Shown: positions 4,799 to 34,090 of the stretch, in pieces
How the letters are laid out: every line of letters begins with the position of its first letter
Position numbering within the stretch: position 1 is the stretch's first letter
From: Anaerolineae bacterium
GTDB lineage: Bacteria > Chloroflexota > Anaerolineae > J102
Length of the DNA stretch: 46,924 bases
NCBI GenBank assembly: GCA_026991225.1
Contig: JALXCB010000112.1
Span: forward strand, 65,917 to 112,840
Direction of reading: 5' to 3'
Made by a program: the position numbers and the translations under genes
The notes under the pieces: generated by a model
Databases searched by the model: none
The model's input: only the letters and a program-made list of their open reading frames with translations
Told to the model about the DNA's origin: nothing

Positions 4799-4827
4799 AG
4801 AAAAAGGCCTGTGTGAGTAAACAGGCC
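4799..4827 (-). terminator. Rho-independent terminator-like hairpin
   Basis: Read on the minus strand: GGCCTGT stem, 8-nt loop, ACAGGCC, then TTTTTCT. It lies about 130 bp past the stop of the band-7-like gene and is oriented to end transcripts from the 17087-4960 cluster. Confidence 0.55.
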
Positions 4828-4959: not shown

Positions 4960-5679
4960 TCAGTTCAATTTGACCCGAGGAAAGGAAAGGGACAGGGAAT
5001 TCGTAAGTTGAGAAAGGAGTTCTTTGACGCCATCATCCATGGAGAGGTGGGTGATTTGAATGTTGGCGTTGGCCAAAGCCTCGATTTTTTCCATGTCTTT
5101 GTAGATTGCCAACGCCTTTTCGTTGAGTCGTGTGTATTGCATCAACGTTTCGTAAGAAGCGGGAGGTTGGGCGACGGTGATCACCCGTTCGAATTGAATG
5201 CCCTCGAACAGAGCTTCTCGATGGGTTATGGAAACAATACGGCCGGAGTAGGCGGTATGATAAATTTCTCCCCCACATAGCGTTTCGGCATTGTATTCGC
5301 CCAATACGGAGCGCACCGCTCTTTCTGCGATAAATGCCACTCGTTCCTTGAGTGCGGCGGGGAAATAGCCGTACCGGTAGGCAAGAATCAACGATTGGTT
5401 TCTGGCGGCATTCCCAGGGTCGAATCGAAAATAACCGCTGACCCGCACCCGAAAGGGGATGCCATCCTTTGAACGGACATTTTCCAACGAAACGTTGAGG
5501 GGCCTGGGGCCTACATGGATGAGGGGGCCGAAGGATTCCCAAATCGAGTGTAACTGAGCCTGGCCGGGCCCAACCAATCGCTGGGGATTGCCGTTGTTCA
5601 GCACCAGCACGACGTGATCAGGAGGAACGGTCATTCCCCAAAAATGATGAGCTACCTGCTCGGTTATGGAGCGCTTCAT
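4960..5679 (-). CDS. Band-7/SPFH-like protein
   Basis: The 239-residue product has no evident signal or membrane helix. The core (VRSKDGIPFRVRVSGYFRFDP, then a helical stretch with AERAVRSVLGEYNAETL) resembles SPFH/band-7 domains, whose beta-sandwich is followed by helices with an R-x-x-x-G pattern. The usual N-terminal membrane anchor is missing. The C-terminal part (LNEKALAIYKDMEKIEALANANIQ) is helical. The start at 5679 was chosen because GGAGG lies about 7 nt upstream; the longer frame from 5775 has no such site. It is last in the minus-strand ATPase cluster, 159 bp after the radical SAM gene. Family placement is moderate and the function unknown. Confidence 0.6.
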   Translation of the reverse strand: MKRSITEQVAHHFWGMTVPPDHVVLVLNNGNPQRLVGPGQAQLHSIWESFGPLIHVGPRPLNVSLENVRSKDGIPFRVRVSGYFRFDPGNAARNQSLILAYRYGYFPAALKERVAFIAERAVRSVLGEYNAETLCGGEIYHTAYSGRIVSITHREALFEGIQFERVITVAQPPASYETLMQYTRLNEKALAIYKDMEKIEALANANIQITHLSMDDGVKELLSQLTNSLSLSFPRVKLN

Positions 5680-5838
5680 CGGGGCCTCCAGGGATGGAGC
5701 GGAATCATGAAGGAATGATTTTGTTCGATTGTATTGTAGCGGAAAAACCCATCGCCTTGGTTCACGCCATACCAATTGATTGATTCAATTTTCCCCTACT
5801 CCTGCATAGACGAACGTTACACCAATCTCACATTTTCC

Positions 5839-7296
5839 TCACACTGCCTGGAAAGTCGCGACGCCGCTCCATTTCAACAGCCGCAACCCTTCCAGCCGCA
5901 CGATTTCGGGCAGAATGGCCTGATATACCTGGCAGTAGGGCGATTTCGCGTCGGCCCGCCCGCGCGTGCGATAGGTCATCAACGTGCACCCGCCGCCGCA
6001 CACGTATCGCCAGGGGCACGTCGCGCATGCCGTCTTCTCATCCACATCCAGAAAGATGGGCTGCCCCTCGCCCGGTTGGAACAGGCGGATCTCCGCCAGG
6101 GGATGGCGAGTGCGAACGTCGGTGACGGGATTGTCCATCTCCATCTGGCAGCGGGCAACTCGCCCTCGATGGTCGATGACGAGATAGCTGTCGCCCGCGC
6201 CGCAGGCCCGGGTGTGGGCCCCGGCCAGATTCGTGCGATCCAGCAGGGAGGTGAACACGTTGTAGGGGGGCAGATCCGCTTCGATGACGGCCAGAGCAGC
6301 CAGGATACCCTGGATAAGTTTGTCGTTCTCCGCTTGCAACGCCTCGTGAGTGCGCCCGGGCGCGTGTTCCTGATAGAAATTCAGGTTGAAGTAGAGCCCG
6401 CGCTCCAGGGCGAAAGCCACGGTCTCGGGCAGGGAGGCCACATTGTGCGCGGTGATGGTGATGGAAAGATGGGGGCGCACGCCGTGGGCAATGGCCCGAT
6501 CAATGCCCCGGCGCACATGTCTGGCGCTGCCTGCGCCGTTGAGGAAGACGCGCTGGGAATTATGCCCTTCGCTCAAACCATCCAACGAGATGGAGAGGGT
6601 CATTTCGGCCTCGCGGATGAAGTCGAGCATGGCGGGGGTGAGGGCGACGCCGTTGCTGAGGAGGACTTCCTGGAGCCCGACGCCTGTCATCTCGCTCAGT
6701 TGCCGGGCGCGCTGATGCAGGGTGCGCACGAGGGGGAAGTTGAGGGTGGCTTCGCCCCCTGCATATTTGAGCTTGACCGCGCGGAAGCCATCGGCCCGGG
6801 CGGAGCGGAAAACCGCGTCCACGGCTTCCAGGCCGATTTCTTCACTCATGCGTTCCTGGTTTTTGCGCACGAAGCAGTAGGTGCAGGCCAGGTTACAGGC
6901 GTTGGTGATGTGCAGCCAGGCGGTGAGGATTTGGGGACGGCGGTGGGGGGCGGGTCGCGGCGATCCATGGTCCGCGGGCTGGAGGAGTTGGAGTCGGGCC
7001 AGTTGGCGGGCGTGTTCGGTGTGGAGCGGCTGGGGTTGGCGATAGGCCTGGAAGAGGTCGAGCGCGGGCCGGTTGAGGACGACGACGCCGGCATCCCCCT
7101 GGGGATCGAACAGGAGCGCATGGTCTTGGGGCAAGGAGGCGCGATGCAGCCCGGGCGTTTGTCGCCAGGGCGCGGTCGGCGGCGCGGCCAGCGCGGGTGC
7201 AAACGTGTGACCGTCCACCGCGCAGGCGCAGTGGGTGGCGGCCCAGTGCTCGGGCCGGACGTAGAGGATGCGGGGAATGTCATGGGGTGCGCCCAT
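5839..7296 (-). CDS. Radical SAM/SPASM-domain peptide-modifying enzyme
   Basis: The product has 485 residues. The radical-SAM [4Fe-4S] motif CNLACTYC (C134, C138, C141) sits in HITNACNLACTYCF. It is followed by GGEATLNF (SAM-binding GGE) and SISLDG. The C-terminal third has a SPASM-type auxiliary cluster: CGAGDSYLVI, ARCQM, CATCPWRYVCGGGC and a final PYC. Such enzymes install crosslinks or thioethers in ribosomally made peptides or proteins. The N-terminal 110 residues (LLFDPQGDAGVVVLNRPALD) faintly resemble a PqqD-like recognition domain. The start at 7296 has GAGGAGG 7 nt upstream and overlaps the STAND gene by 17 bp, so the two are translationally coupled. No small precursor gene was found beside it. 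Confidence 0.88.
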   Translation of the reverse strand: MGAPHDIPRILYVRPEHWAATHCACAVDGHTFAPALAAPPTAPWRQTPGLHRASLPQDHALLFDPQGDAGVVVLNRPALDLFQAYRQPQPLHTEHARQLARLQLLQPADHGSPRPAPHRRPQILTAWLHITNACNLACTYCFVRKNQERMSEEIGLEAVDAVFRSARADGFRAVKLKYAGGEATLNFPLVRTLHQRARQLSEMTGVGLQEVLLSNGVALTPAMLDFIREAEMTLSISLDGLSEGHNSQRVFLNGAGSARHVRRGIDRAIAHGVRPHLSITITAHNVASLPETVAFALERGLYFNLNFYQEHAPGRTHEALQAENDKLIQGILAALAVIEADLPPYNVFTSLLDRTNLAGAHTRACGAGDSYLVIDHRGRVARCQMEMDNPVTDVRTRHPLAEIRLFQPGEGQPIFLDVDEKTACATCPWRYVCGGGCTLMTYRTRGRADAKSPYCQVYQAILPEIVRLEGLRLLKWSGVATFQAV

Positions 7297-10200
7297 TGTT
7301 TGCCTCCTCACAATACCAGAGTGAACGATCTTCCAGGAGTTCGCGCATGGCGGATTTCTCGATTCCCATCCCTTCTTCGGCCTCCTGCACGCCCTGGCAG
7401 ATCTCATGCAACTCGGTCGTGGTAAGTTTTTTCAACTGATCGAAGATGAACTGCTTCCCTACCAACAGCGCGCCATAATTCTCCCCGCGCACCTGGCTGT
7501 ATGCCAGCGCCCGGGTGTAAAGCCGGCCGATTTCCCGTAATTTCTCCCTCACGTTCCTTTTCAGGGTTTTCTTATTCGGTTCTCGAATCTTCTCGAATTC
7601 GCGATACACCTGAGCTCCTTTCATGACGTAAAGTTTGCCCAATTGCTGCCAGATAAGTTTTTCCTGTGAAACGACCTGACGACCTTTTTTGGGCGGATCC
7701 GCAGCCGTTCCGTTCCGCCAGAAACCGGGAAATTCTGCTTTGAACAAGGCTTCCGCGCGCTTCATCAAGTCCTCATCCTCCGCATAGAATCCCAGCCAGG
7801 CCAGAGTGGCGATGGCGTCAGCAGCCAACGGGGGATAGCCATACTCCAGCGCTTCCCGTGCCGCTTCCATCAGGAAAGATTCACTTTCTCTGGCGTAGCG
7901 GGCGAGGCGGGAGGGAGCGCACTCGCGGGGAGGCTGGATGGGATGGCAGAGCTCCTCTTGGGTCATCTGCCTGCAGAGGCGGATCTTGTCACGAATGACG
8001 CAGCCCAGTTCGATCAGCGCTTTGATACGATACCAGCGGTCTTTGGATTCGGTCATCGCGTCTAAGGAGCGTTGGGCGAGCGTGTTCGCCCGTAACAGGG
8101 CATCGAATTTCTCTTCGTAGGAGGGCATGTAAGACGTGCCGGCAAGCAGACGGATGGCTTCGGAGAGGGCCAGGGCAGCCAATCCTTCGCCTCGAGTGAA
8201 CCTGATGCATTGGGCAATATGCAGCGCCCGGCGGGCCAGATACATCGCATCCCGATAGTGGCGCTGTTCGATCTCGATCATAGCCAGCGCGCTGAGCGTC
8301 AGCCCCACCTGTCCGGGCGCGCCCAACTGCCGGAAGAGGTTGAGACTGTTGAGACCCAGGTCTTCTGCTTCCGGAAAGTACCCCACCCGCCCCAGGTTGT
8401 AAGCCAGATCGCGGGTGGTGGTGGCCACCTCGGCCAGAAGATTCACCTCCCGCCACAGTTTGACCGAGTCGCGATAATGTCTAATCGCTCTATCCACGTC
8501 ACCCTGATTGTCCAGTAGATAAGCCTTCACCCGCAGGGCGAAAGCCTGGATGGCCTTACAACGCCAGCGCACAAGACCATCCCCGGCCAGGCGCTCCCTC
8601 GCGCATTGACTGGTCTCGCCAATGGCGTGGTCCAACAACGCATGCGCTTTTTTCAGATCGCGGCCAAGCATGATGAGGGCGTAGGCCTCCCACACATCGA
8701 GGATGGCACAATTATTGAGATCGGCCATAAGGTTCTTATCTTCTCGCAACTTCTCGGCCATCTCCGTCACCGCATCATAGCGTCCCTCCACCCAGGCCCG
8801 CACCACCGGGCGCATGGCCACGATGCCAGCCACCGTGCGTTTCAGATCATCGGTGATCGACGGAGCGCCTGGCTCGTCGAAGAAGTTCAGCATCTCCGCT
8901 TCCAGGGCCATATCCAGGGCCACATCCCCGGCCAGATCAGCGTGACGGGTGTATCGATATCGTTGGCGCAACCCTCGTTCCTTATCACGCTTGAGGTCGT
9001 AATAAATGCGTTCCGTCATCCAGGCGTGGCGGAGGAGGTAATACTCGCTCAAACGCTCCCTCGGTGGACACCGTTCCGTTCCCTCCTCCTCGGCCGGCAG
9101 GAATTCCTGAGACAATTCCTCCAACAAACAGCGGACATGCTGGCTGTAATAGGCGTCAACCGCGTCCATCTGTTCCTCGAAGGTGGGATCTTGATTGGAC
9201 TCCAGGACCTCATTGAGTAGAAAGTAGAGCTCATCATGGAGGAAGTAACGCACCCCTCCGCTGACATGTTGGCGCTTCTTGGTGAAGGTATAGGGCTCGA
9301 TGGCCAGCAGGCGCTGTTGCGCCTCTTCCTCGTTGCGGCCAATGACCCTGGCCAGCAGCGTCGAATCAGCGCCCTTGGGCAGCCACGCCAACGTCCTGAT
9401 GGTGTCGAACTGCTCTCGAACGGCCTCGTCGGGATGGTTGGCCAAATGCTCGAAGAAAGTAACATGCCAGGCCTCGGAATGGCCGAAAGCAATTACTGCC
9501 TCCAGTTGCGCAATGGTTCCCTCCATAAGCAGGTAGTCGATGATGAGTGAGAGGCGGATGGGATTCCCCTCGGACCAATGCGCAATGCGCCTCACAAGTT
9601 GGGGTGAAAAAGTGGAGAGCCGCCCGACAATGCGCCGCGCGTCGGTGCGTCGTTTTGGGTCGGGATCCTCCAGATGCTCTTCCGCGATCTGAAGGATGGC
9701 CTCGAAATAAGCCTGCACCCCCGCCTCATTCAGAGGCTTTAGTTCCATCTTGTAGCTTAGCGGCTCAGGAAAAGCCTTTCGCAGATCCTCCCAGAGCGCG
9801 CGCGACGCGTCCCGGCCAGAAGGGGACTCAGGCCGGCCGGCGATGATGAAATACAGATTTTCCTGGTTCTTCAACAGTTGTTTCAACCATTCCCATGCAT
9901 CCGCGAAATGCCGCTGTTCAGTTTCCCCCATCCAGGTGTACACCCACCGCTCCGCCGTGTCCAGGGCAAAGATCACGGGCTTCTCCTGGCATGCTTCCTC
10001 CAAAACTCTCTCGAAAAGCTCCAAATGTTCCTTGCGCCGTTCTGCGCTTTGCCCTGCCACCCCTGCCGCCCACAGGCCCCACATCTCTTCCATGAGCTCT
10101 TCCACCCGTTTTTCCTGCAAAAACGGCGCCGCCCGATGGAGGGCGTCGGCCAGGCCATTGGAGGTGTGGGCCGTGGTCAGGTAAAGGTCCACCTCCCGTT

Positions 10201-10441
10201 CGGCCACATACGCCATCCCCTTTGCCCCCAAGGTCTCTCGCAGACGTTTCAAAGCCTCCCGCACCAGCCGGGTCTTGCCAATGCCCCCTTCGCCGGAAAT
10301 AAAAAACACCCGCGGAGGATCCCCATTTTGGAACATCTGGAGAATCTGGTTCAGCTCTTTCTCTCGCCCCACCACGCGGGGCAAGGCATAGAGGCTGGTA
10401 AAACCGCCCTCGTTTTCTCTTTGAATGGCATCACCATACAT
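7280..10441 (-). CDS. STAND-type ATPase with TPR repeats
   Basis: The product has 1053 residues. The order is an AAA_16/NACHT-like NTPase with VVGREKEL (about 23-30), Walker A GEGGIGKT (50-57), a Walker B-like PVIFALDTAE, and a winged-helix-like linker with RRIAHWSEGNPIRLSLI. A long helical region follows with TPR-like units (AIRHYRDSVKLWREV, AEDLGLNSLNLFRQLG, AMYLARRALHIAQ). STAND proteins are switches that oligomerise when the repeats sense a signal; many serve in conflict or regulation. The start has GGAGGAGGG about 8 nt upstream. It ends inside the start of the radical SAM gene. The tail SLWYCEEANNGRTP carries Trp, Tyr and Cys, possible targets for that enzyme (inference). Confidence 0.88.
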   Translation of the reverse strand: MYGDAIQRENEGGFTSLYALPRVVGREKELNQILQMFQNGDPPRVFFISGEGGIGKTRLVREALKRLRETLGAKGMAYVAEREVDLYLTTAHTSNGLADALHRAAPFLQEKRVEELMEEMWGLWAAGVAGQSAERRKEHLELFERVLEEACQEKPVIFALDTAERWVYTWMGETEQRHFADAWEWLKQLLKNQENLYFIIAGRPESPSGRDASRALWEDLRKAFPEPLSYKMELKPLNEAGVQAYFEAILQIAEEHLEDPDPKRRTDARRIVGRLSTFSPQLVRRIAHWSEGNPIRLSLIIDYLLMEGTIAQLEAVIAFGHSEAWHVTFFEHLANHPDEAVREQFDTIRTLAWLPKGADSTLLARVIGRNEEEAQQRLLAIEPYTFTKKRQHVSGGVRYFLHDELYFLLNEVLESNQDPTFEEQMDAVDAYYSQHVRCLLEELSQEFLPAEEEGTERCPPRERLSEYYLLRHAWMTERIYYDLKRDKERGLRQRYRYTRHADLAGDVALDMALEAEMLNFFDEPGAPSITDDLKRTVAGIVAMRPVVRAWVEGRYDAVTEMAEKLREDKNLMADLNNCAILDVWEAYALIMLGRDLKKAHALLDHAIGETSQCARERLAGDGLVRWRCKAIQAFALRVKAYLLDNQGDVDRAIRHYRDSVKLWREVNLLAEVATTTRDLAYNLGRVGYFPEAEDLGLNSLNLFRQLGAPGQVGLTLSALAMIEIEQRHYRDAMYLARRALHIAQCIRFTRGEGLAALALSEAIRLLAGTSYMPSYEEKFDALLRANTLAQRSLDAMTESKDRWYRIKALIELGCVIRDKIRLCRQMTQEELCHPIQPPRECAPSRLARYARESESFLMEAAREALEYGYPPLAADAIATLAWLGFYAEDEDLMKRAEALFKAEFPGFWRNGTAADPPKKGRQVVSQEKLIWQQLGKLYVMKGAQVYREFEKIREPNKKTLKRNVREKLREIGRLYTRALAYSQVRGENYGALLVGKQFIFDQLKKLTTTELHEICQGVQEAEEGMGIEKSAMRELLEDRSLWYCEEANNGRTP

Positions 10442-10537
10442 GAGCGCCCTCCTCCGGTCAGCTCAGATGTCAGAACAACAAGTTCCTTATGAAACTGGAC
10501 ATAGATGACTTCATCATACAAAACCAGGTGTTGTCTG

Positions 10538-12052
10538 TCAACTAACAATAATGTTGGGGGACGAAGACCAATTTTTACTTTGCCCCAGCTCCACTTCCCA
10601 GATGGCCACATAATGCATCAATGCCAGAGGGCCGTATTTCTCTCGGTCGTATTTCTCAGACCATGTATCGAAAAGCCGGTATGCCACATAATGGAGCCAT
10701 TGCCAGAGCCTCGGACTGTTGACTCGCAAGTCGTACGTCAGGGGAAATCGAACGGCTTCTTCGACGAAGTAGCCTTTATATTCTCTTGTTTCTTTTCGTT
10801 TTATGTCCCAACGCAGAAGTTGATATTTCTGTAACTCATTTCGCACCCGCCAGAATGCTACCCTATCGTAATAACGTAAACCCTTTACGATAAATTCCTC
10901 ATACAATGTTTCCAATGATTGCGATTGCATTTCTCTTTGATATTGTTTGAAGAATGTGTAAGCGTTGAGCATCCTGACGCCGTCGGGATCACGCACCCCC
11001 CATTCGATGTAAGGCAAGGGAGCTTCTCCGAGATATCTTACTTTCACGGCCTTCAGATCGCTCTCTTTTCGCCTCGATGTCTCTTCCAAATGGCTCTCCA
11101 GATCGGGACGCCACCGGTTGAGGATGGAAAGGGCTTCCAGATGTTGGCGAATCTTGCTTCTTTCCGTTTCCTCTGTGATGAAAGAGAGTAACTCATCCAG
11201 AGCTTGCTTCACGCCGTCTCCCAGATCCTCTGTGCGCGCCAGCAGCAAGGCGGTGCGGGGATAGCCGCCGCTGATGCGATAGATGGTGTCGATTTGATTT
11301 TTGCCCTGCTCCCCCAATTGGTGATATGCAGGCGACTGGGCTAATTTCTCGAAGAGATCGTACAGCCCTTCCTCCCTATCTTTTTTCCCCACGGTCCTTT
11401 TACTCAAAGGCCCCAAAGAGATGTCTTTGCTTTGAATATTAAGATCGTGATGGGTGAAAAGAGGCGCCCGCCCCCGTCCGCTCATGACAATGACCCAACG
11501 CTTCTCTTCGACAATATGATTCAAAAGATAGGTTTCCAGGCCTTCGAGAAATGCCTGGGGAACATCGAAGAGCCCGTCCAATAGCCAGACGATGGTTTTG
11601 TCCGCCATTGCTCGTAGTTGGTTCATCAGCCATTGTGATTGTTCTGACAACTTGGCGTCTTCCGCGGTCAGCCCCTCAAACTCGCGGGTGATATCGCGCA
11701 ACAGATCCCGTAGTCCCCGCTCGTCATATTTTCGCGTTGTGTAAATCCGATTCCGCTCACTCCGATCATTTTTTCTCCGACTCGCCATGGATGTTGGCTG
11801 ATCGAAGTTAATATAAATCGAGATAATATCAGCCATATTGCTGTGGAGGACGGTGTGATGGATATGGCGCAAGAGCCAACTCTTGCCCACGCCCCGCTCT
11901 CCAGAAATGCGAATGGTGTGCTCGTCGACATTCTGGCGCTGTGAAACGGATTCGATGATTCCTTTGATCTCTTTAATTTCGTTTTTGCGATCGACAAAAA
12001 GATCTGGATCATACTGGGTAGGAATTTCAGTAGACGTGTTTCGATCTGGCAT
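10538..12052 (-). CDS. P-loop ATPase (STAND/AAA-like)
   Basis: The product has 504 residues. FVDRKNEIKEIKGII (about 19-33) precedes Walker A GERGVGKS (51-58). Walker B is IVWLLDGLFD, and RWVIVMSGRGRAPL looks like a sensor-1 strand. YRISGGYPRTALLLAR matches the GGxP turn of STAND ATPases. The C-terminal 150 residues, with YYDRVAFWRVRNELQKYQLL, look like a winged-helix domain plus helices; there are no TPRs. The start at 12052 (MPDRNTST) was chosen for AGGAGGAG directly upstream; the longer frame from 12358 overlaps the previous gene. It begins 16 bp after that gene ends, so the two are probably co-transcribed. Base composition is AT-richer than neighbouring metabolic genes. Confidence 0.8.
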   Translation of the reverse strand: MPDRNTSTEIPTQYDPDLFVDRKNEIKEIKGIIESVSQRQNVDEHTIRISGERGVGKSWLLRHIHHTVLHSNMADIISIYINFDQPTSMASRRKNDRSERNRIYTTRKYDERGLRDLLRDITREFEGLTAEDAKLSEQSQWLMNQLRAMADKTIVWLLDGLFDVPQAFLEGLETYLLNHIVEEKRWVIVMSGRGRAPLFTHHDLNIQSKDISLGPLSKRTVGKKDREEGLYDLFEKLAQSPAYHQLGEQGKNQIDTIYRISGGYPRTALLLARTEDLGDGVKQALDELLSFITEETERSKIRQHLEALSILNRWRPDLESHLEETSRRKESDLKAVKVRYLGEAPLPYIEWGVRDPDGVRMLNAYTFFKQYQREMQSQSLETLYEEFIVKGLRYYDRVAFWRVRNELQKYQLLRWDIKRKETREYKGYFVEEAVRFPLTYDLRVNSPRLWQWLHYVAYRLFDTWSEKYDREKYGPLALMHYVAIWEVELGQSKNWSSSPNIIVS

Positions 12053-12068
12053 GATCTCCTCCTGGTTT

Positions 12069-13289
12069 CTATGAACCCCAATGAAACGCTGCGCGATCTG
12101 GAAAAGCGGCCGTACTGGGAGAATCATTCCCGGATTTTTTGTGTCGATAGCGCTCCTCCAGACGTCGGACATCCTTTTCCCCAAAAAGATCCAGGGGGTT
12201 ATGAGAGCGACTATGTTCGATGAAAAGACGATGAACCAGCCACAACACCTCCCGGGGCGTGGAGGGCGAGGCCATGTGCGCCAACCGTCGGTCCAGGTCT
12301 TCCAATTCGATCTCTGCCAGCGCGTCCAGGGAATCAAAGCGTCCCTGACTGGCGACATAAAGCCTACGGCGCAGCATCTCCACCAACATCCCGGACGTCC
12401 ATTGCAAATGGGCCTCGGGCCATGGCATTTCCAGCATTCGAAAATCGGGCCGGATCATCTCGGGAGCAAAGACCTTGACGTAGATGGGCGCGCGGAAGAA
12501 CTCCCGGAAACCAGTCAACCAGCGTGCCAACCAGCGCGCGCCCTCCCGTTCCCCTTCCCTCCGGTTGGTCTCGGAATAGGCGTCCACGCCGTCCACCAGG
12601 ATATGGATGGCCCGATAACCGAAATGGTCATGAAGGATTTCGAAGAGAGCATGCAATGACCGCCACGCGATAGACGCGTCCGGAGAGACTCGATGGGCTT
12701 CGATGCGAGCAATGACATGATGCAGCCGCTTCTGGGAGGGGGGGAGAAAGCCTCTCCTCAAGGCAGGAGGCAGCAAACTGGCCAATGTCGCTTCCCAGGG
12801 ACCTTCTTTCCATTGCGTCAAAATCCAGCCCAGTTCAGGTTGCGTGCGCCAGAGGAGGAGACTTAGCGTCTTTTGCATTGTATCAGGAAGCGTTAGGAAG
12901 CGTTGAGGAAATGTCAGGAGGATGGTCAAGATGGCGTTCGTTGTGGCATACGTCAACGCCCGGCCATGCGCTTCGAAATCGGATGGGGGAAACGCGTCCC
13001 AATGTTTGGGCAGCACATAAGGAATGGCGAAGAACGCGTAAAGGCTGCGGAGACTGTGCCATGTGGCGTAGAGACGTAAAGCTGTTTTCCCGCCGCCCAC
13101 AGGAGCGAAGATCAAAGCGTCCCCAGGCTCCCATATGCGCGCCAATCCTTCGTGGACCACCGTATATTGCAACAAGTGGGGATCCGACGCGGACTCGAGA
13201 TGGACAAAGGGATCGAACTGAAGCCCAACGTCCTGCAACCATGCCTGTAGCTTCCAGGCGTGATCAACAACGGGCGCCTCGATTGTCAT
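12069..13289 (-). CDS. P-loop ATPase with intact Walker A
   Basis: The product has 406 residues. FDPFVHLESASDPHLLQY leads into a P-loop APVGGGKTA (about 62-70, lysine 68) and Walker B AIHILVDGVDAYSE (about 227-240). It then has YVKVFAPEMIRPDF and a helical C-terminus. The motifs align in order with those of the gene at 13517-14878, so the two look paralogous, but only this one keeps the Walker lysine. The start at 13289 (MTIEAPVVDH) was chosen for GAGG 6 nt upstream and because the family similarity starts there; an upstream reading from 13478 adds a low-quality tail. Its exact role is unknown; context suggests a part of the ATPase relay here. Confidence 0.75.
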   Translation of the reverse strand: MTIEAPVVDHAWKLQAWLQDVGLQFDPFVHLESASDPHLLQYTVVHEGLARIWEPGDALIFAPVGGGKTALRLYATWHSLRSLYAFFAIPYVLPKHWDAFPPSDFEAHGRALTYATTNAILTILLTFPQRFLTLPDTMQKTLSLLLWRTQPELGWILTQWKEGPWEATLASLLPPALRRGFLPPSQKRLHHVIARIEAHRVSPDASIAWRSLHALFEILHDHFGYRAIHILVDGVDAYSETNRREGEREGARWLARWLTGFREFFRAPIYVKVFAPEMIRPDFRMLEMPWPEAHLQWTSGMLVEMLRRRLYVASQGRFDSLDALAEIELEDLDRRLAHMASPSTPREVLWLVHRLFIEHSRSHNPLDLFGEKDVRRLEERYRHKKSGNDSPSTAAFPDRAAFHWGS

Positions 13290-13516
13290 AGAAACCTCAA
13301 GGACGTCATTCGAAATAAGGCCCAAAGGAAAGAAAAAAGTCTCAAGCGGGAGCCGCCAGCCCTTAAAGCCGGCCCTTTGGCGTTGCGCCTCCTGCTCCAT
13401 TGCATGAGACTTATCCTGAAATTGGGGAGAAAAGTGTATTTTTAATTTACCAAATTGATTCGTAGAAAAGTTATACAAAATCTCTGCTAGAACCTCACAA
13501 CTTCCTCACAGAACGA
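13290..13516. other. Gap inside the ATPase cluster, possible internal promoter
   Basis: This 227-bp gap is the only break of over 200 bp in the cluster. On the minus strand an AT-rich patch (TTGTGA, then TATAAC 19 bp on, followed by AATTAAAAATAC) could initiate transcription of the three downstream ATPases and the radical SAM gene. No gene was seen. Confidence 0.3.
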
Positions 13517-14878
13517 CTATCGAGTACGGGCGAGACGCACACCGCGGCCGCGTTCGGTGATGAGGAAAATGGGATGGTGGGGATCGGGTTCGATGGCCTG
13601 TCGCAGCCGCCAGATCACCGTCTCCATCGTCCCTTCCCATCCATACGTCGCTTCGCCCGGCCGATAAGCCTGTGTGAACAACTCCTTTCGGCTGCATATC
13701 TCGCCATCTCGAACATAGAGATATTCCAACACTCGATAAAGACTCTCGGAAAGGCCTTTGATCTCCAACGAGCCAACCCAGACCCGCTTATCCGGGGTAA
13801 TGCGCAGGCGAGGAGCAAGTTGGCGGCGGATCCGCCGCCAACTTGCGATGGACAGGGGACGCTCCCCTCCTTCCTCCAGATAGATGCGATAGAGATCCCC
13901 TGTCCATCGCAGCCAGCGGCGGGGATTGCCGCCGCCATAACGCTGCAACCATGTCACCACATCAGGCGCATCGCAAAGGTCTATCAGTTTGGTGACGCGG
14001 CCTTCGCTGGCCAAAGCCAGACGCAATGCCACTATGTCCGTCAGATCATCCATATCCCATTGCAGCTCGAATTCCACCACCCGCCGCGTATTGACGGCAT
14101 GGGTGCGGGTGAGAAACCGTCGCCAGCGTAAGGGAGCGGCCATTTTGAAAGCAAATCCCGGTTGATCGAAGTAGGCCAGGGTGGAAAAGAATCGTTGCAG
14201 CGCTCCCTGGATTACAGCATCATCCAGATCAAGATCCGCCTCCCATCGCTCGAAGCCATCCACGAACACCCAGACGCCCTGAACGCCCGCCCGTTTCACC
14301 ACCTCCACCAACCGTCGGATGGCTTGCGTCAGGGGGAATAGCCGTACGGTCTCAGGCGGCAAAAGCAAATCTCCTTCCGGCCTATTCAGGGTCCGCAGCC
14401 AGGCCCGGGAGGCCTCAGGGGCCTCTTCGTGCAATTGCATCAGTTCGACATCCAACAAAGGGGAGGCAAAGGCGAGGATGAAAGCCGAAAGGTAAGCCTG
14501 GCCCCACGCTGGTAGGGCCTCACGCCGCCGGGGCTCCCACGCAAAATACTGCAGCGCGCCCAGGGCCACGCTCTCCAACAATGTCCGTCGCCATGTCATC
14601 TGCGTCCGTCTTTCATCCCCCTCCGGCGGATTGGGCCGCCAATCGACGGGGAGCCATAATGCGGCCTTTTTATGGTGCGACAGGCTCCGGCGTTTCAACA
14701 TCCTCAGCATGGCGCTACGCCCGCCACCAGCCTCACTGTAAATCACCACAGAGCCTGGCCCGGCCATCAAAGCTTCATCTTGTGGAGAATGAAACGCGCG
14801 CGGCAACCAGGGCTCATCTTCGGCCCGTAGCGCGGCAAAAGCCTGCAAGCCAGGAGGGAGGATATCAACACCAATCAT
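13517..14878 (-). CDS. P-loop pseudo-ATPase fused to OmpR/PhoB-type winged helix
   Basis: The product has 453 residues. The P-loop position reads SEAGGGRSA (about 48-56), with Arg where Walker A needs Lys. Walker B is retained (VWVFVDGFERWE, 202-213). Motif order matches the ATPase at 12069-13289. The last 95 residues (about 358-452) form a transcriptional-regulator winged helix: SLEIKGLSESLYRVLEYLY, then VIWRLRQAIE as recognition helix and FLITERGRGVRLA as the wing. No receiver domain is present, so it looks like a one-component regulator gated by nucleotide binding or by partners. The ATG overlaps the end of the upstream membrane gene by 14 bp; no strong ribosome site exists, so coupling is likely. 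Confidence 0.78.
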   Translation of the reverse strand: MIGVDILPPGLQAFAALRAEDEPWLPRAFHSPQDEALMAGPGSVVIYSEAGGGRSAMLRMLKRRSLSHHKKAALWLPVDWRPNPPEGDERRTQMTWRRTLLESVALGALQYFAWEPRRREALPAWGQAYLSAFILAFASPLLDVELMQLHEEAPEASRAWLRTLNRPEGDLLLPPETVRLFPLTQAIRRLVEVVKRAGVQGVWVFVDGFERWEADLDLDDAVIQGALQRFFSTLAYFDQPGFAFKMAAPLRWRRFLTRTHAVNTRRVVEFELQWDMDDLTDIVALRLALASEGRVTKLIDLCDAPDVVTWLQRYGGGNPRRWLRWTGDLYRIYLEEGGERPLSIASWRRIRRQLAPRLRITPDKRVWVGSLEIKGLSESLYRVLEYLYVRDGEICSRKELFTQAYRPGEATYGWEGTMETVIWRLRQAIEPDPHHPIFLITERGRGVRLARTR

Positions 14879-17087
14879 ACGTGGATTCCATCTTGCGAAT
14901 GGCTGCGCAAATATCCGCTTTCGTCAATTGCTTCTCAACGATATCTGGGGGCATGGCGTCTTGGGGGCTGAGGGCGACATGATGTTGCAACGCCAGACGC
15001 ACGGCCTGGATAAGCGCGCGGGGCGGCGCGTCCTGCACCAACGCGAAGTCAAGAAGCAGCGTGCGGGCCTCCTCGGTCAAGGTGAGCTCATTACGTAGGT
15101 AATCAAGACGATTGTCAAGCAATCCATTCAAATCTTCGCGATTCCAGACCAGTTCACCTTGAGGGCAGCAGAAGGACGGCGGCTGGGGAGCGATGAATTT
15201 GAGATACACGCTCTCTTTCTGTAACGCTTTGGCCAAAGGTAACATCTCCTGGAGAACGAGCGATGGCATAGGCTCATCCCATTCTATCATCACATGGGTT
15301 GCGTTTAGACCGACGGGGCGAGCAGATGCCAGACGCAACATCCAGGAAAAAGGCGGCTGGTTCCCGGACAACGCCAGGGGAAACGCTTCCAGACGGGCCC
15401 TCAGGCTCCTGCCCGTCTTGGTGCGTTCCAGATCGATGCCCAAACTGGCAAGCCAGGCGTAAATTGCTGCGAGATCGCCGAATCGCCAGAACAACAACTG
15501 CGCGACCACATGCTGCGCCTCATAGGGAAGATCGAGGAAAGCTGTGGGGCCATTGAAATACTTCGGTGATTCCCGTTCTGGATCCAGGATCGCTCCCCAT
15601 GTATCTACAAGCACATACAGTAACTGCTCCAGAATGGAAAATCGCGTCAGTTGTGACGGCGCAGCTTCTAAAGCGAGATAGAGAGGCAACGCCTTTTTCT
15701 CAAGCTGATTTTCCTTAAGCAGATGAAAAGTATAGTATGCCAGAGAGGTGCGTCCGCTTCCCGGTCCGCCTTGAATCCAACCCATGCGCTTTCCTTCCAT
15801 GAGTTGCATGATACGTGGCCTCTTATAATAAACCTTCGGCAGATAAGGCTCCCATTCTGCACAGGCCACGGCGAAAGGGTTGGATGGACTCCCCAACCAT
15901 GCAAGAACCTGGTCATCATCGACAGGCTCGACCCTCGAGGCCCCAGGAAGAGAAAAATCATACAACGGCTCCTTCACAACGTCGGAGAACTCGTCTCGTT
16001 CCCGCAGCCTCGGGTGTCGAAGCAGGCGACGATAAGTAGCCACCTTCAATATTTGTTCCTTCCATTCTTGTTTCTTTTCTTCGACTTGCTGGTCCAACCC
16101 TAGTTCGATCAGCGCCACCGCCCATTCTCGCACCAAAACGTCATATTCCTGCCAAAGCCACAAGATGGCGTTCAGACGCTCATCCGTCCCCAGCGAATCC
16201 GCTCGTCCGTCCCTGGTTTCCCATAATGCTTTGATCGTCTTCCATTTACAGCATACCTCCTGATCATCACGATCTTTATCTCTTGACGCCTTCTCCAGCT
16301 CCAGCAATATATCGATCCTTTCCATAATCTGCACACGATATTTCTCTAGCCCTTCCGCCCATAAGAATTCACGCGCCAGTATATCAATTTGAGTTAGCAC
16401 GACAAGTATCCACTGGTCTTTGTGTTGCTTAAGTAGTTGGTTGTGCAAAAATTTTGTTTTTTTATCCACGATATGATCTTGGCTTTCAATTTCCTTTTTT
16501 AAGTCCAGCCAATGATCAATAATCTGAATAGGCTGAGATACGCCACGATCTTCGATTTTCCTCAAACGTTCTTGCCAGATAAGATTTTGTTCCCGTCGTT
16601 TATATTCAATATACCATTGAGCTAAACCCACAAGAAAGGCAAATGCACTCCACACCAGCCCCAAATCCCCAAACCATGTCTGCGTCATCTGCACCCGACA
16701 CGCCCGCACCTCTTCGGAAGCGTTCCCTATGTCAACGAACAGTGGAGGCCCGCCGAAGCCGCGAACCAACATCGATGTCACGGCCAATGCGCTCCCCAGA
16801 ACGATGAAATCGTAAGGCAACAGCTCGTCACCGCCAAACCGCACCAGCAAGGCAAAATAGCCCAGGAGCAGCGTCACAGACAGGATTCCAATCGCCAATT
16901 GAATGAAATCGCTCTGTGGCCTAACCGCACACACCCCATACCCAAACACGCCTACGCCCAAAAATACCGCGCCTACCCAAATGAATACTTTTATCCCATT
17001 CACCAGGCCCGGCGGATAACACTGCTCGATTCGTCGTCGCCAATTTGGCTCATCAGGATTGAAATCTGAATGATTTTCTGGCGCCAT
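14865..17087 (-). CDS. Membrane-anchored P-loop protein with GR[ST] Walker A
   Basis: The product has 740 residues. There are four probable membrane helices at about 31-54, 61-83, 92-110 and 142-160. A charged helical, coiled-coil-like region covers about 165-370. A P-loop GGPGSGRTS (440-448) has Arg in place of the Walker lysine, and ATHVMIEWDEPMP (about 596-608) is Walker B-like. The layout suggests a membrane sensor whose soluble part is a degenerate ATPase related to the two following genes. It is first in the minus-strand cluster and overlaps the wHTH gene by 14 bp. Parts of the coding region (about 16250-16600) are clearly AT-richer than the neighbouring metabolic genes, hinting at acquisition by transfer. 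Function unknown. Confidence 0.75.
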   Translation of the reverse strand: MAPENHSDFNPDEPNWRRRIEQCYPPGLVNGIKVFIWVGAVFLGVGVFGYGVCAVRPQSDFIQLAIGILSVTLLLGYFALLVRFGGDELLPYDFIVLGSALAVTSMLVRGFGGPPLFVDIGNASEEVRACRVQMTQTWFGDLGLVWSAFAFLVGLAQWYIEYKRREQNLIWQERLRKIEDRGVSQPIQIIDHWLDLKKEIESQDHIVDKKTKFLHNQLLKQHKDQWILVVLTQIDILAREFLWAEGLEKYRVQIMERIDILLELEKASRDKDRDDQEVCCKWKTIKALWETRDGRADSLGTDERLNAILWLWQEYDVLVREWAVALIELGLDQQVEEKKQEWKEQILKVATYRRLLRHPRLRERDEFSDVVKEPLYDFSLPGASRVEPVDDDQVLAWLGSPSNPFAVACAEWEPYLPKVYYKRPRIMQLMEGKRMGWIQGGPGSGRTSLAYYTFHLLKENQLEKKALPLYLALEAAPSQLTRFSILEQLLYVLVDTWGAILDPERESPKYFNGPTAFLDLPYEAQHVVAQLLFWRFGDLAAIYAWLASLGIDLERTKTGRSLRARLEAFPLALSGNQPPFSWMLRLASARPVGLNATHVMIEWDEPMPSLVLQEMLPLAKALQKESVYLKFIAPQPPSFCCPQGELVWNREDLNGLLDNRLDYLRNELTLTEEARTLLLDFALVQDAPPRALIQAVRLALQHHVALSPQDAMPPDIVEKQLTKADICAAIRKMESTYDWC

Positions 17088-29257: not shown

Positions 29258-30190
29258 ATGACCGATGTCATCAACGACGCGGAAGCCTACGGCGTCGAAA
29301 TCATCCCCGCTGCCGTCGAGCCCGGCCAGGTGTACTGGAAAGTCATCCGGGTGCATCATCTCACGCCCGAAGAGAACAACGGGCGGCATCACATCTTCAT
29401 CGACGCGGTGGATGAAGAGGAGAACCGTCTTTACGGCAGCCTGTTTGCCATCTCGTGGGATGGCGGCAGCGACACCGTGATCATCGAAAAGGAGCCGCCC
29501 GAGCCCGGCGCGAACTTCCCCATGTGGAAATGGCAGGTGTGCAGCGTCGAGGGCATGGGCGCGCCCTCCGACCGGGTCATCAACCTGCACACCGCTCATC
29601 CTGACGAAGGCCCCGGCAACACCCTCTTCCACCACTCCTTCGCCATCACCTACCTGCGCACCGTGGCGGAGGAAGTGGAAACGCCCGCGTACAGCATCAT
29701 TCGCGGCCGCGTGCCCGGAGGCGGCGGCCACACCCTCGCGCTCATCGATGAGGATCAGGTCGTGCAGACTCAGGTCGTGGGCGCAGATGAACAATACCGC
29801 TTCGCCAATCTGCCCGCGGGCGCCTACATCGTGCGCGACAGCAGCGACCTGCGCGTGGCCGGGCCTGCGTTCCTGGATGGACGGGATGAAGCCGTCCTCA
29901 ATTTCCCCGCGCCCCTGCCCGAAGACCGCGTCTTCGCCCGCTACGTCCTCTTCGCCGACCCCGCACTGCCCGAAACCCAGGTCTATCTCTCCCTCCTGGC
30001 CGATTACCTGGCCCAGAACGCCATCCCCTTCGGCTTCCAGGTCACCGACGCCGCCCAGGCCCTGAAAGTGAGCCTGGTGGGCGTGCACCCGCAGGAGACC
30101 GAGGAGGCGCTGATTGAGGCGGGGTGCGACGTGGAACGCCTGCCTCTGGACCCCAGCGAGCTGCTGGCAGCGCTGGAAGCCGCGCGATGA
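29258..30190 (+). CDS. Conserved beta-rich protein sharing its C-terminal domain with the preceding glycosidase
   Basis: The product has 310 residues and no signal or membrane helix. The N-terminal half (VYWKVIRVHHLTPEENNGRH, SDRVINLHTAHPDEGPGNT, LFHHSFAITYLRT) looks like a His-rich beta-sandwich; I know of no assigned function. A carboxypeptidase-regulatory-like module follows (IIRGRVPGGGGHTLALIDED, YRFANLPAGAYIV). The last 80 residues (RYVLFADPALPETQVYLSLL, ALIEAGCDVERL) match the end of the 1024-residue neighbour. GGAG lies upstream of the ATG. The stop overlaps the sfsA start (ATGA). The shared domain and proximity suggest the pair work as partners. Confidence 0.75.
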   Translation: MTDVINDAEAYGVEIIPAAVEPGQVYWKVIRVHHLTPEENNGRHHIFIDAVDEEENRLYGSLFAISWDGGSDTVIIEKEPPEPGANFPMWKWQVCSVEGMGAPSDRVINLHTAHPDEGPGNTLFHHSFAITYLRTVAEEVETPAYSIIRGRVPGGGGHTLALIDEDQVVQTQVVGADEQYRFANLPAGAYIVRDSSDLRVAGPAFLDGRDEAVLNFPAPLPEDRVFARYVLFADPALPETQVYLSLLADYLAQNAIPFGFQVTDAAQALKVSLVGVHPQETEEALIEAGCDVERLPLDPSELLAALEAAR

Positions 30191-32314: not shown

Positions 32315-34090
32315 TCATTGCGCCCGCAACGCGGGCAAGAGATAATCCCGAACCACCACCTCCCAGCTCATACGCTGGCCCGCGCGCTGGCCCAAATCCA
32401 GCAGCGCCCCCAACTCTTCATCGGTCAGGGGCAGGCGCATGGCGATGGCCTCGGCCACCCGCTTGCTGCGTCGGCTTTCGATGCGATCGCGGGCGGCGCG
32501 GTCGATGCCCAGCGCATCCTCCGCCCGGAGCAAAGACCAATCGGGGGGCGGCGTCACATAATCGGCCACGATGACGTTGGGGAATGCTTCGAAATCGGCC
32601 GTGGCCCGCTGCACGAACCCCACCGCGCCGCATACATTGCTGGGGACGCACAACGCGCCGAAGCTTAGCGGCTCCACCTGGGCGATGCCGAAGGGCTCGT
32701 AGATGCTCTGGCCGAACTCCACGTCCGTCCCCCGCCGCAAATCCATGAAGCTCATGGCCTCGGGCATGCGCAAACCGCAGCGGTCCCGGCTCCAGCCGAA
32801 CTGATTCACCAGCACGGCCTTCACCGCCCGGCTGCGGGCGTTGAAAGGCTCCAACACGTGGAAGTAGAAATCCACCTCCAGCCCCAACAAATCGCCATTG
32901 TCCGCCCGATGGCCCACGGGCCAGCCATAGTCCTGCTCCCAGCGGAAGACCTGCTCGGGCGGGCGGCCTGTGGGCTCGGCGCTGGAGAGGATGAACATGA
33001 CCGCGGTCTTCCCCGCCCGGGCCAGGATGCGGTCCAGATGCTCCAGCACCCGGATATCCCGCCACAGGGCCTTGCTCAGCACAAAGCGGGTGACATGGCT
33101 GAAGATGAAATCGGGGGTGAAGTCTAACAGGTTGTGCGCGTATTGCTGCAAGAGCGCCCGGCTGCGCTGCTTTTCCGCCAGGGTGATGCGGGCGCTGGGG
33201 ACGCCGTTATAGACGAGATGGATGGGTTTGTGCGCGAACGCGGGGTCCGCGAAGCGCAGCTCCTCCACCACCAGGTCACCCACGGCCAGGGTGCCGTCAA
33301 ACAGCGCGGCGCGGGTGAGCAGCGCGTGCTTGAAGAAGTGATCCTGCGGCCCGAACAGATCGGCCATGCTCCGGTCTTTCTGCAGGGCCAGACGCAGGAC
33401 ATTGTAGAAGCGGGTGTCGTGGCCCGGATGCGCTTCCACCAGCAGGCGGGCTGTGGCCACCTCGTGCGCGTAGAAGTAGGTGCGCCACATGGACGCATCC
33501 CGCGCCAGCGCCGCCAGGGTCAGGGGCACGCCCATCCATTCGTGGGCGAGGAGGATGCGATGCCCGGGCGTTTCCTGGGCCAGATGGTAGATGGCCGCGT
33601 ACGCGGGCTCGGCCAGCTCCACGAACTGGCGGAACTCGGGATCGTGTTCATAGCGGGCCACATCCAGCCCGAACCCGTCCCACAGGCTGTATTTGAACGC
33701 CGCGGCCCGCTCCCCATCGATCTGCGAGGCGTCGATCAGCAGCACCTCATGCTCCACCCCGCCGAAGGGCCGCAGCCCATACAAAATCTGCACATGGAAC
33801 GCGTCCTCGATGCGGCGAAAGGCATCCCCGAGTTCGGGCGGAACCAGGGCCACGCCCCGCTGGCGCAGATAGAGCAGGCGCAGGCCATTGGTGGGCGCAA
33901 ACAGCCGGGCCATCTCCTCCCGATGGTGGACGTTGTACGGTCCCACCACGATGCTGCGCCCCACCGCCTCATTGTACGCCCGCGCGCCCAGCAGTCCGTT
34001 CAGCACCGCGCCGATGCCGCCCACCTTCACCCCCGCTTCGTGGGTGATGTGGATGAGGAGGTCGATGGTAGGCGAGGAGGTGTGTGTCAT
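32315..34090 (-). CDS. GT5-like glycosyltransferase (starch/glycogen-synthase type)
   Basis: The product has 591 residues with a GT-B fold. The N-terminal HEAGVKVGGIGAVLNGL has the KxGG motif that binds the sugar nucleotide in starch and glycogen synthases. The C-terminal SIYEPFGIAQVEPLSFGALCV has the EX7E motif, and a central LVYNGVP is typical of the linker. The N-terminal domain is longer and more divergent than glycogen synthase GlgA, so the acceptor is uncertain; it may act in glycogen or another intracellular glucan, consistent with GH57 about 7 kb away. There is no obvious ribosome site. An A/T-rich heptamer array lies directly upstream. Confidence 0.8.
   Translation of the reverse strand: MTHTSSPTIDLLIHITHEAGVKVGGIGAVLNGLLGARAYNEAVGRSIVVGPYNVHHREEMARLFAPTNGLRLLYLRQRGVALVPPELGDAFRRIEDAFHVQILYGLRPFGGVEHEVLLIDASQIDGERAAAFKYSLWDGFGLDVARYEHDPEFRQFVELAEPAYAAIYHLAQETPGHRILLAHEWMGVPLTLAALARDASMWRTYFYAHEVATARLLVEAHPGHDTRFYNVLRLALQKDRSMADLFGPQDHFFKHALLTRAALFDGTLAVGDLVVEELRFADPAFAHKPIHLVYNGVPSARITLAEKQRSRALLQQYAHNLLDFTPDFIFSHVTRFVLSKALWRDIRVLEHLDRILARAGKTAVMFILSSAEPTGRPPEQVFRWEQDYGWPVGHRADNGDLLGLEVDFYFHVLEPFNARSRAVKAVLVNQFGWSRDRCGLRMPEAMSFMDLRRGTDVEFGQSIYEPFGIAQVEPLSFGALCVPSNVCGAVGFVQRATADFEAFPNVIVADYVTPPPDWSLLRAEDALGIDRAARDRIESRRSKRVAEAIAMRLPLTDEELGALLDLGQRAGQRMSWEVVVRDYLLPALRAQ

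Follow-up and report, generated by a model that had tools for sequence, protein, structure and literature searches.

The whole stretch of DNA analysed here (46,924 nt of contig JALXCB010000112.1, assembly GCA_026991225.1; hereafter the window) carries, on the minus strand at 5839-17087, six genes that form a real, repeatedly inherited cassette. The genes encode a membrane-anchored P-loop protein (Mem740), a P-loop ATPase fused to an OmpR-type winged helix (OmpR453), two further ATPases (ATP469 and ATP606), a signal transduction ATPase with numerous domains followed by tetratricopeptide repeats (STAND-TPR) and a radical S-adenosylmethionine (SAM)/SPASM enzyme. Judged from sequence, the cassette is on balance probably a nucleoside triphosphate (NTP)-dependent conflict system, most plausibly directed against invaders and either cell-protective or suicidal, in which the enzyme would be controlled by the STAND protein and would most likely have its own Cys-rich tail as substrate.

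Conservation of the gene order

Complete or nearly so, an order running from the membrane P-loop protein through the ATPase-winged helix, ATPase, ATPase_2 and STAND-TPR to the radical SAM enzyme recurs in many Chloroflexota families at 25-50% identity. An earlier note on this DNA had proposed gene-order conservation as a check on the six-gene block, and the comparison was made from both sides. Among regions fetched after ATPase-side searches of the class, the same order was seen in about ten genomes, and the radical SAM gene was present in 12 of the 13 informative regions, that is, those in which the contig runs past STAND-TPR. The exception is L080, a weak homologue; the L076 enzyme was recovered through its motif. 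From the radical SAM side, an alignment of the enzyme was scanned against 84,980 named species genomes, and the best 80 of the 183 relatives were retained. These loci cover Chloroflexota, Nostoc, Actinomycetota and KSB1, and STAND-TPR lies within 4.5 kb of the enzyme, usually as the adjacent upstream gene, in 63 of the 66 that extend far enough upstream. Of the three other ATPase profiles, two or more were found in 32 of the 65 retained loci with long flanks and none in 24, many of the latter from Nostoc. Near-identical Nostoc loci inflate the radical-SAM-side counts somewhat, and the two sets have some genomes in common, so the counts are given separately. Distances between STAND-TPR proteins are correlated with those between the enzymes (Mantel r 0.68, compared with at most 0.10 in 999 permutations).

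The close relative L064 lacks both middle ATPases, whose genes are therefore optional, and in Roseiflexus the enzyme gene and the remaining cassette genes are convergently oriented. The near-universal part is the STAND-TPR/radical SAM pair, to which one further ATPase is usually added, the other ATPases being optional; the six genes that the earlier note had treated as one unit do recur in order, but only this smaller set is near-universal. The enzyme was detected in 34 of 301 Chloroflexota genomes and is therefore accessory and patchy in its distribution. Because the order is conserved elsewhere, in many families and several phyla, a chance neighbourhood of unrelated genes is refuted: the P-loop genes do co-occur with the radical SAM gene.

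The radical SAM/SPASM enzyme and its Cys-rich tail

The window enzyme matches Radical_SAM (Pfam, 2.6e-15), and its CxxxCxxC and GGE motifs and seven SPASM Cys residues, invariant in 60 of 60 sequences, are intact. The best profile match is PapB (5e-35 to 6e-42), and CteB is the best solved relative both by sequence (6.5e-41) and by fold. In the AlphaFold2 (AF2) model (mean predicted local distance difference test (pLDDT) 91.9; about 68-80 in the tail motif region) the enzyme has a CteB/anSME/ChlB-like fold, with a small β/α domain ahead of the core. This domain sits at the position of the N-terminal region of CteB that resembles a recognition element (RRE) for ribosomally synthesised and post-translationally modified peptides (RiPPs). 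Peptide-directed SPASM chemistry is supported by the intact motifs and the predicted folds.

The small N-terminal domain is preceded by a Cys-rich tail that contains (E/D)xDCAC units, which are sometimes also found between that domain and the core; the earlier note had not mentioned this motif. DC[AD]C is present in 70 of 81 enzyme open reading frames (ORFs) compared with 2 of the 808 other ORFs of 100 aa or more from the same loci, and D22, C23, A24 and C25 are each found in 56-58 of 60 sequences. The Cys content of the tail is 6.9%, against 0.75% for STAND-TPR, and Asp precedes 101 of the 219 tail Cys residues. Two or more motifs are carried by 40 proteins, with a spacing most often of 18-25 residues. 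The window tail reads THCACA (Asp to His), as in its close relative. The tail is most likely the enzyme's own substrate.

The main alternative retains the conflict system and takes the DCAC tail as a metal, Fe-S, redox-sensing or electron-entry site, the substrate being another protein of the cell, the cassette or the invader. CxC and CDC motifs are able to bind metals, the near-invariance of the tail motif is what a functional site would show, and auxiliary-cluster enzymes of this class (anSME, QhpD) modify whole proteins. However, the units number from one to several, are variably spaced, stand in tandem and in some proteins fall after the small N-terminal domain and ahead of the core, while several lineages lose the second Cys yet keep D-C units, a pattern that resembles a core peptide more than a fixed ligand set. 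The variable copy number, spacing and position of the motif argue against a fixed metal or Fe-S ligand site, and we consider this alternative fairly unlikely.

A classical RiPP cluster, in which a secreted peptide derives from a separate precursor that was missed, would be in keeping with the PapB and CteB similarity and the RRE-like domain, and short ORFs are easily missed. Against it, clustering of small ORFs within about 2-3 kb of the enzyme gave nothing conserved beyond close relatives, as exemplified by a hydrophobic ORF of 54-68 aa in four Nostoc loci; no constantly linked exporter or protease was seen in the neighbourhoods, and the ATPase stack is not RiPP tailoring machinery. This explanation is very unlikely.

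Two further observations concern the tail. At L118:6539-6805 an 88-aa ORF with the sequence EEDDCACI lies upstream of a second STAND-TPR and a radical SAM gene, and may represent a detached tail or a broken duplicate. In the Chloroflexota family f70 (L201-L207) the trio adjoins SIR2-like and PNP_UDP proteins, and in several members the tail motif has decayed to repeats of the NEC/DEC type.

Effector domains around the relatives

TIR, SIR2, PNP/UDP-phosphorylase, trypsin, CHAT, EAD and MoxR/vWA domains are hallmarks of NTP-dependent conflict systems (Kaur et al. 2020, PMC7159879). In the Nostoc locus L122, Trypco1, trypsin-EAD9 and EAD9-ATPase proteins are found with STAND-TPR and the enzyme. 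The Actinomycetota loci L116 and L141 combine a TIR-bearing protein with the same pair, an AAA domain being detectable on the L116 TIR protein, and L151 contains EAD7-PNP, MoxR, vWA and a double ATPase with a winged helix together with the enzyme. Further Chloroflexota loci include SIR2, SIR2-PNP, SIR2/TIR, an ATPase with EAD7 and CHAT, TIR-ATPase and EAD7-ATPase, and in other lineages EAD, TIR or CHAT domains are present in the slot occupied by ATP606. The arena with the best support is immunity, because such hallmark domains are carried by the relatives' ATPase slot and neighbours. The earlier note had proposed either a signal-transduction or a conflict system with a radical SAM modification as output; the linked domains favour conflict, whereas we can only infer modification as the output.

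A signalling cassette without an immune role, with transcription under the control of the ATPase-winged helix protein and a modified signal peptide or cofactor as the product of the enzyme, would fit the OmpR-type winged helix present in many Chloroflexota cassettes and the housekeeping surroundings in the window, and the patchy presence could also be metabolic. However, the STAND-TPR/radical SAM pair is wired elsewhere to TIR, SIR2, PNP/UDP, trypsin, CHAT and EAD domains, so a conflict role is favoured over housekeeping signalling, and a cassette of the latter kind is unlikely.

The P-loop proteins of the cassette

P-loops had been reported in five consecutive proteins, and the motif was found in each: GEGGIGKT (STAND-TPR), GERGVGKS (ATP606), APVGGGKT (ATP469), SEAGGGRS (OmpR453) and GGPGSGRT (Mem740). 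The Walker Lys is replaced by Arg in OmpR453 and Mem740. This replacement is common among relatives in the membrane slot; in the OmpR slot most relatives keep the Lys, and the window copy is therefore atypical. The proposed domain assignments were borne out by Pfam and by transmembrane (TM) prediction, with two TM helices in Mem740 (residues 31-49 and 64-82), Trans_reg_C on OmpR453 (2.8e-9), AAA_16 and TPR_12 on STAND-TPR, and Radical_SAM on the enzyme.

First-slot proteins in other loci are usually TM-anchored. Mem740 diverges fast: a homologue in the same genus (L064/L002) is 41% identical, and matches were obtained in 5 of 199 genomes of the class, at 47% identity in the best other genome. 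Single-protein searches of the class gave about 18 full-length or near-full-length homologues of the winged-helix ATPase, and matches to ATP606 in 20 genomes, mostly on the same contigs and a few kb away. Mem740 and ATP606 were matched in only two of five sampled genomes of the window's genus. No Pfam family was found for ATP469; its AF2 model (pLDDT 82) has a generic AAA/ASCE fold, and the fold search returned generic AAA matches only, none with E ≤ 0.001. In profile searches ATP469 and OmpR453 show remote similarity to DS41_1 and the Sll1717 ATPase family; a relative gives a clearer match to DS41_1 (E 4e-20, positions 1-371 of 448).

At L077:5737-10251 (L106) a single 1504-aa ORF fuses ATP606-like and STAND-TPR parts. 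This predicted fusion supports a direct functional link between the two.

Comparison with known systems

Among described arrangements, the nearest is the FxSxx module found in VMAP-ternary conflict systems, where an AP-ATPase with TPRs is coupled with the radical SAM/SPASM enzyme by which the FxSxx peptide is modified (Kaur et al. 2020, PMC7159879). As in that module, a STAND protein with TPRs stands beside a radical SAM/SPASM enzyme, there are TIR and MoxR-vWA companions, and a peptide output is proposed. Unlike FxsB, the cassette enzyme scores 58.5 bits with TIGR04269 against a cutoff of 370, PapB scoring higher, and it bears its own DCAC tail; the cassette also has an extra multi-ATPase stack with an OmpR winged helix. 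The FxSxx peptide and metallopeptidase were not found, FxsA-type motifs not having been searched for as such, and MoxR and vWA are absent from the window block and present in one relative, L151. Likeness to NTP-dependent conflict systems in general (PMC7159879), in the form of EAD7/EAD9, Trypco1, trypsin, CHAT, TIR, PNP and MoxR/vWA near family members, is confined to the relatives and does not extend to the window.

DS-41 is an experimentally validated anti-phage system (DefensePredictor, PMC13092281; NF053860), and the ATPase parts of ATP469 and OmpR453 are remotely homologous to its DS41_1; the winged helix and the STAND-TPR and radical SAM partners, in contrast, lie outside the DS41_1 model. 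With the PapB/CteB thioether (ranthipeptide, SCIFF) maturases the enzyme shares its best profile match (PapB; 121 bits, and at best 144 in a Nostoc relative, below the family cutoff of 340), its best PDB match (CteB), the seven-Cys SPASM domain and the RRE-like region. It differs from them in carrying the candidate substrate motif on the enzyme itself and in its genetic tie to STAND ATPases. Prokaryotic viperins (pVip) have a radical SAM core and an antiviral arena in common with the cassette enzyme, which differs in having SPASM and an extra N-terminal domain. Viperin-type nucleotide chemistry was considered and rejected, the match being at superfamily level only (55.6 bits against a cutoff of 180) and a full SPASM domain being present.

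The general logic of a STAND switch, a SPASM enzyme and a conflict arena has described precedent. The combination had not been recognised as a named system, and no description of a STAND-TPR/DCAC-tailed radical SAM pair or of a DCAC-tailed SPASM family was found in the literature searched (subscription papers and most preprints lay outside its scope).

Proposed mechanism

What the sequences establish is the gene content and its conserved order, the tail motif, the domain associations and the intact catalytic residues. For the conflict system with a self-modifying enzyme, we infer the trigger, the order of action, the modification of the tail and the immune purpose as follows. The membrane-anchored P-loop protein and the P-loop ATPases would act as sensor and relay and would gate the STAND-TPR switch, and the OmpR-type DNA-binding end of one ATPase may switch transcription. 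STAND-TPR would then activate or scaffold the radical SAM/SPASM enzyme, which would modify its own Cys-rich tail, where the (E/D)xDCAC unit occurs once or several times. The output would be this tail after crosslinking or some other modification, whether it latches an active state, is released as a toxic or signalling peptide, or offers a surface for binding. The STAND-TPR/radical SAM pair of other lineages is wired to standard suicide effectors (TIR, SIR2, PNP, trypsin, CHAT).

Several observations weigh against this proposal. The window cassette has no effector enzyme besides the radical SAM protein, and its flanks are housekeeping genes (transketolase, DNA polymerase III delta, release factor-like) with no defence island. 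No relative was found on viral contigs. The DS41_1 scores (46.6 and 47.4 bits in the window, 46-72 overall) are far below the cutoff of 370. Some tails lack the second Cys and keep D-C (DCAP, DCR), or are changed to NEC/DEC. Finally, a gene for a radical SAM enzyme whose DCAC tail carries two GDCACDS units (L160:9854-11323, the same place as L208:8997-10466) has no STAND-TPR or other family ATPase in its fetched flanks, both of which are long. That a STAND-controlled, self-modifying DCAC-tailed radical SAM enzyme is the output of a widespread immune system, as an embedded-precursor RiPP-like effector in Chloroflexota, cyanobacteria, Actinomycetota and other phyla, is put forward tentatively, as possible rather than probable.

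Gene layout in the window

The ORF check of the window and the refined starts agree with the earlier description of six minus-strand genes in one block with 14- and 17-bp overlaps (Table 1). The shorter overlap joins Mem740 and OmpR453, and the longer is that of the radical SAM gene (ATG 7296) with STAND-TPR (stop 7280). A seventh co-directional gene, for a Band_7/SPFH protein, which the earlier note did not include, lies 3' of the radical SAM gene; among the regions compared it is common only to the window and the same-genus relative L064. The terminator-like hairpin that had been placed downstream of the block is present at 4827-4806, but it follows this seventh gene, and as a class such signals are not above chance in the region (17 found against 14.4 expected). 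Because the hairpin with its T-tract sits 3' of the Band_7 gene, the transcription unit may hold seven genes and end there. No RNA families or tRNAs were found in the window. Elsewhere in it, the ORFs at 32315-34090 (591 aa) and 29258-30190 (310 aa) have no Pfam match at E 1e-4.

Table 1. Features of the cassette and its 3' flank, in window coordinates.
Feature	Position	Strand	Description
Mem740	14865..17087	-	membrane-anchored P-loop protein, first slot; weak NPHP3_N/NACHT match; presumed sensor or membrane anchor
OmpR453	13517..14878	-	P-loop ATPase domain with C-terminal OmpR-type winged helix; DS-41/Sll1717-like ATPase
ATP469	12069..13289	-	intact P-loop ATPase; likely ATG 13289, longest ORF start 13478
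ATP606	10538..12052	-	ATPase_2/AAA_16 STAND-like ATPase; likely ATG 12052, longest ORF start 12358
STAND-TPR	7280..10441	-	STAND (AAA_16/NB-ARC-like) ATPase with C-terminal TPRs
Radical SAM/SPASM enzyme	5839..7296	-	ATG 7296, longest ORF to 7407; PapB/CteB-like
HCAC tail motif of the enzyme	7222..7233	-	site of the family's conserved (E/D)xDCAC; candidate embedded core-peptide motif
Small β/α domain of the enzyme (tail-to-core interval)	6934..7179	-	position matches RRE-like N-terminal domain of CteB
SPASM domain	5932..6204	-	seven invariant Cys; expected to hold two auxiliary Fe-S clusters
Band_7/SPFH protein gene	4960..5775	-	PF01145, 9e-9; 63 bp 3' of the radical SAM gene
Terminator-like hairpin and T-tract	4806..4827	-	3' of the Band_7 gene

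Implications

Overall, the analysis points to an unrecognised module of STAND and radical SAM proteins, widespread in Chloroflexota, Nostoc and other bacteria, which links RiPP-type chemistry to immune switches resembling nucleotide-binding leucine-rich repeat (NLR) proteins and gives DS-41-like ATPases a multi-gene context. The module provides a concrete candidate for a radical SAM enzyme that bears its own substrate and, if the tail is indeed that substrate, the enzyme would be a new kind of effector.

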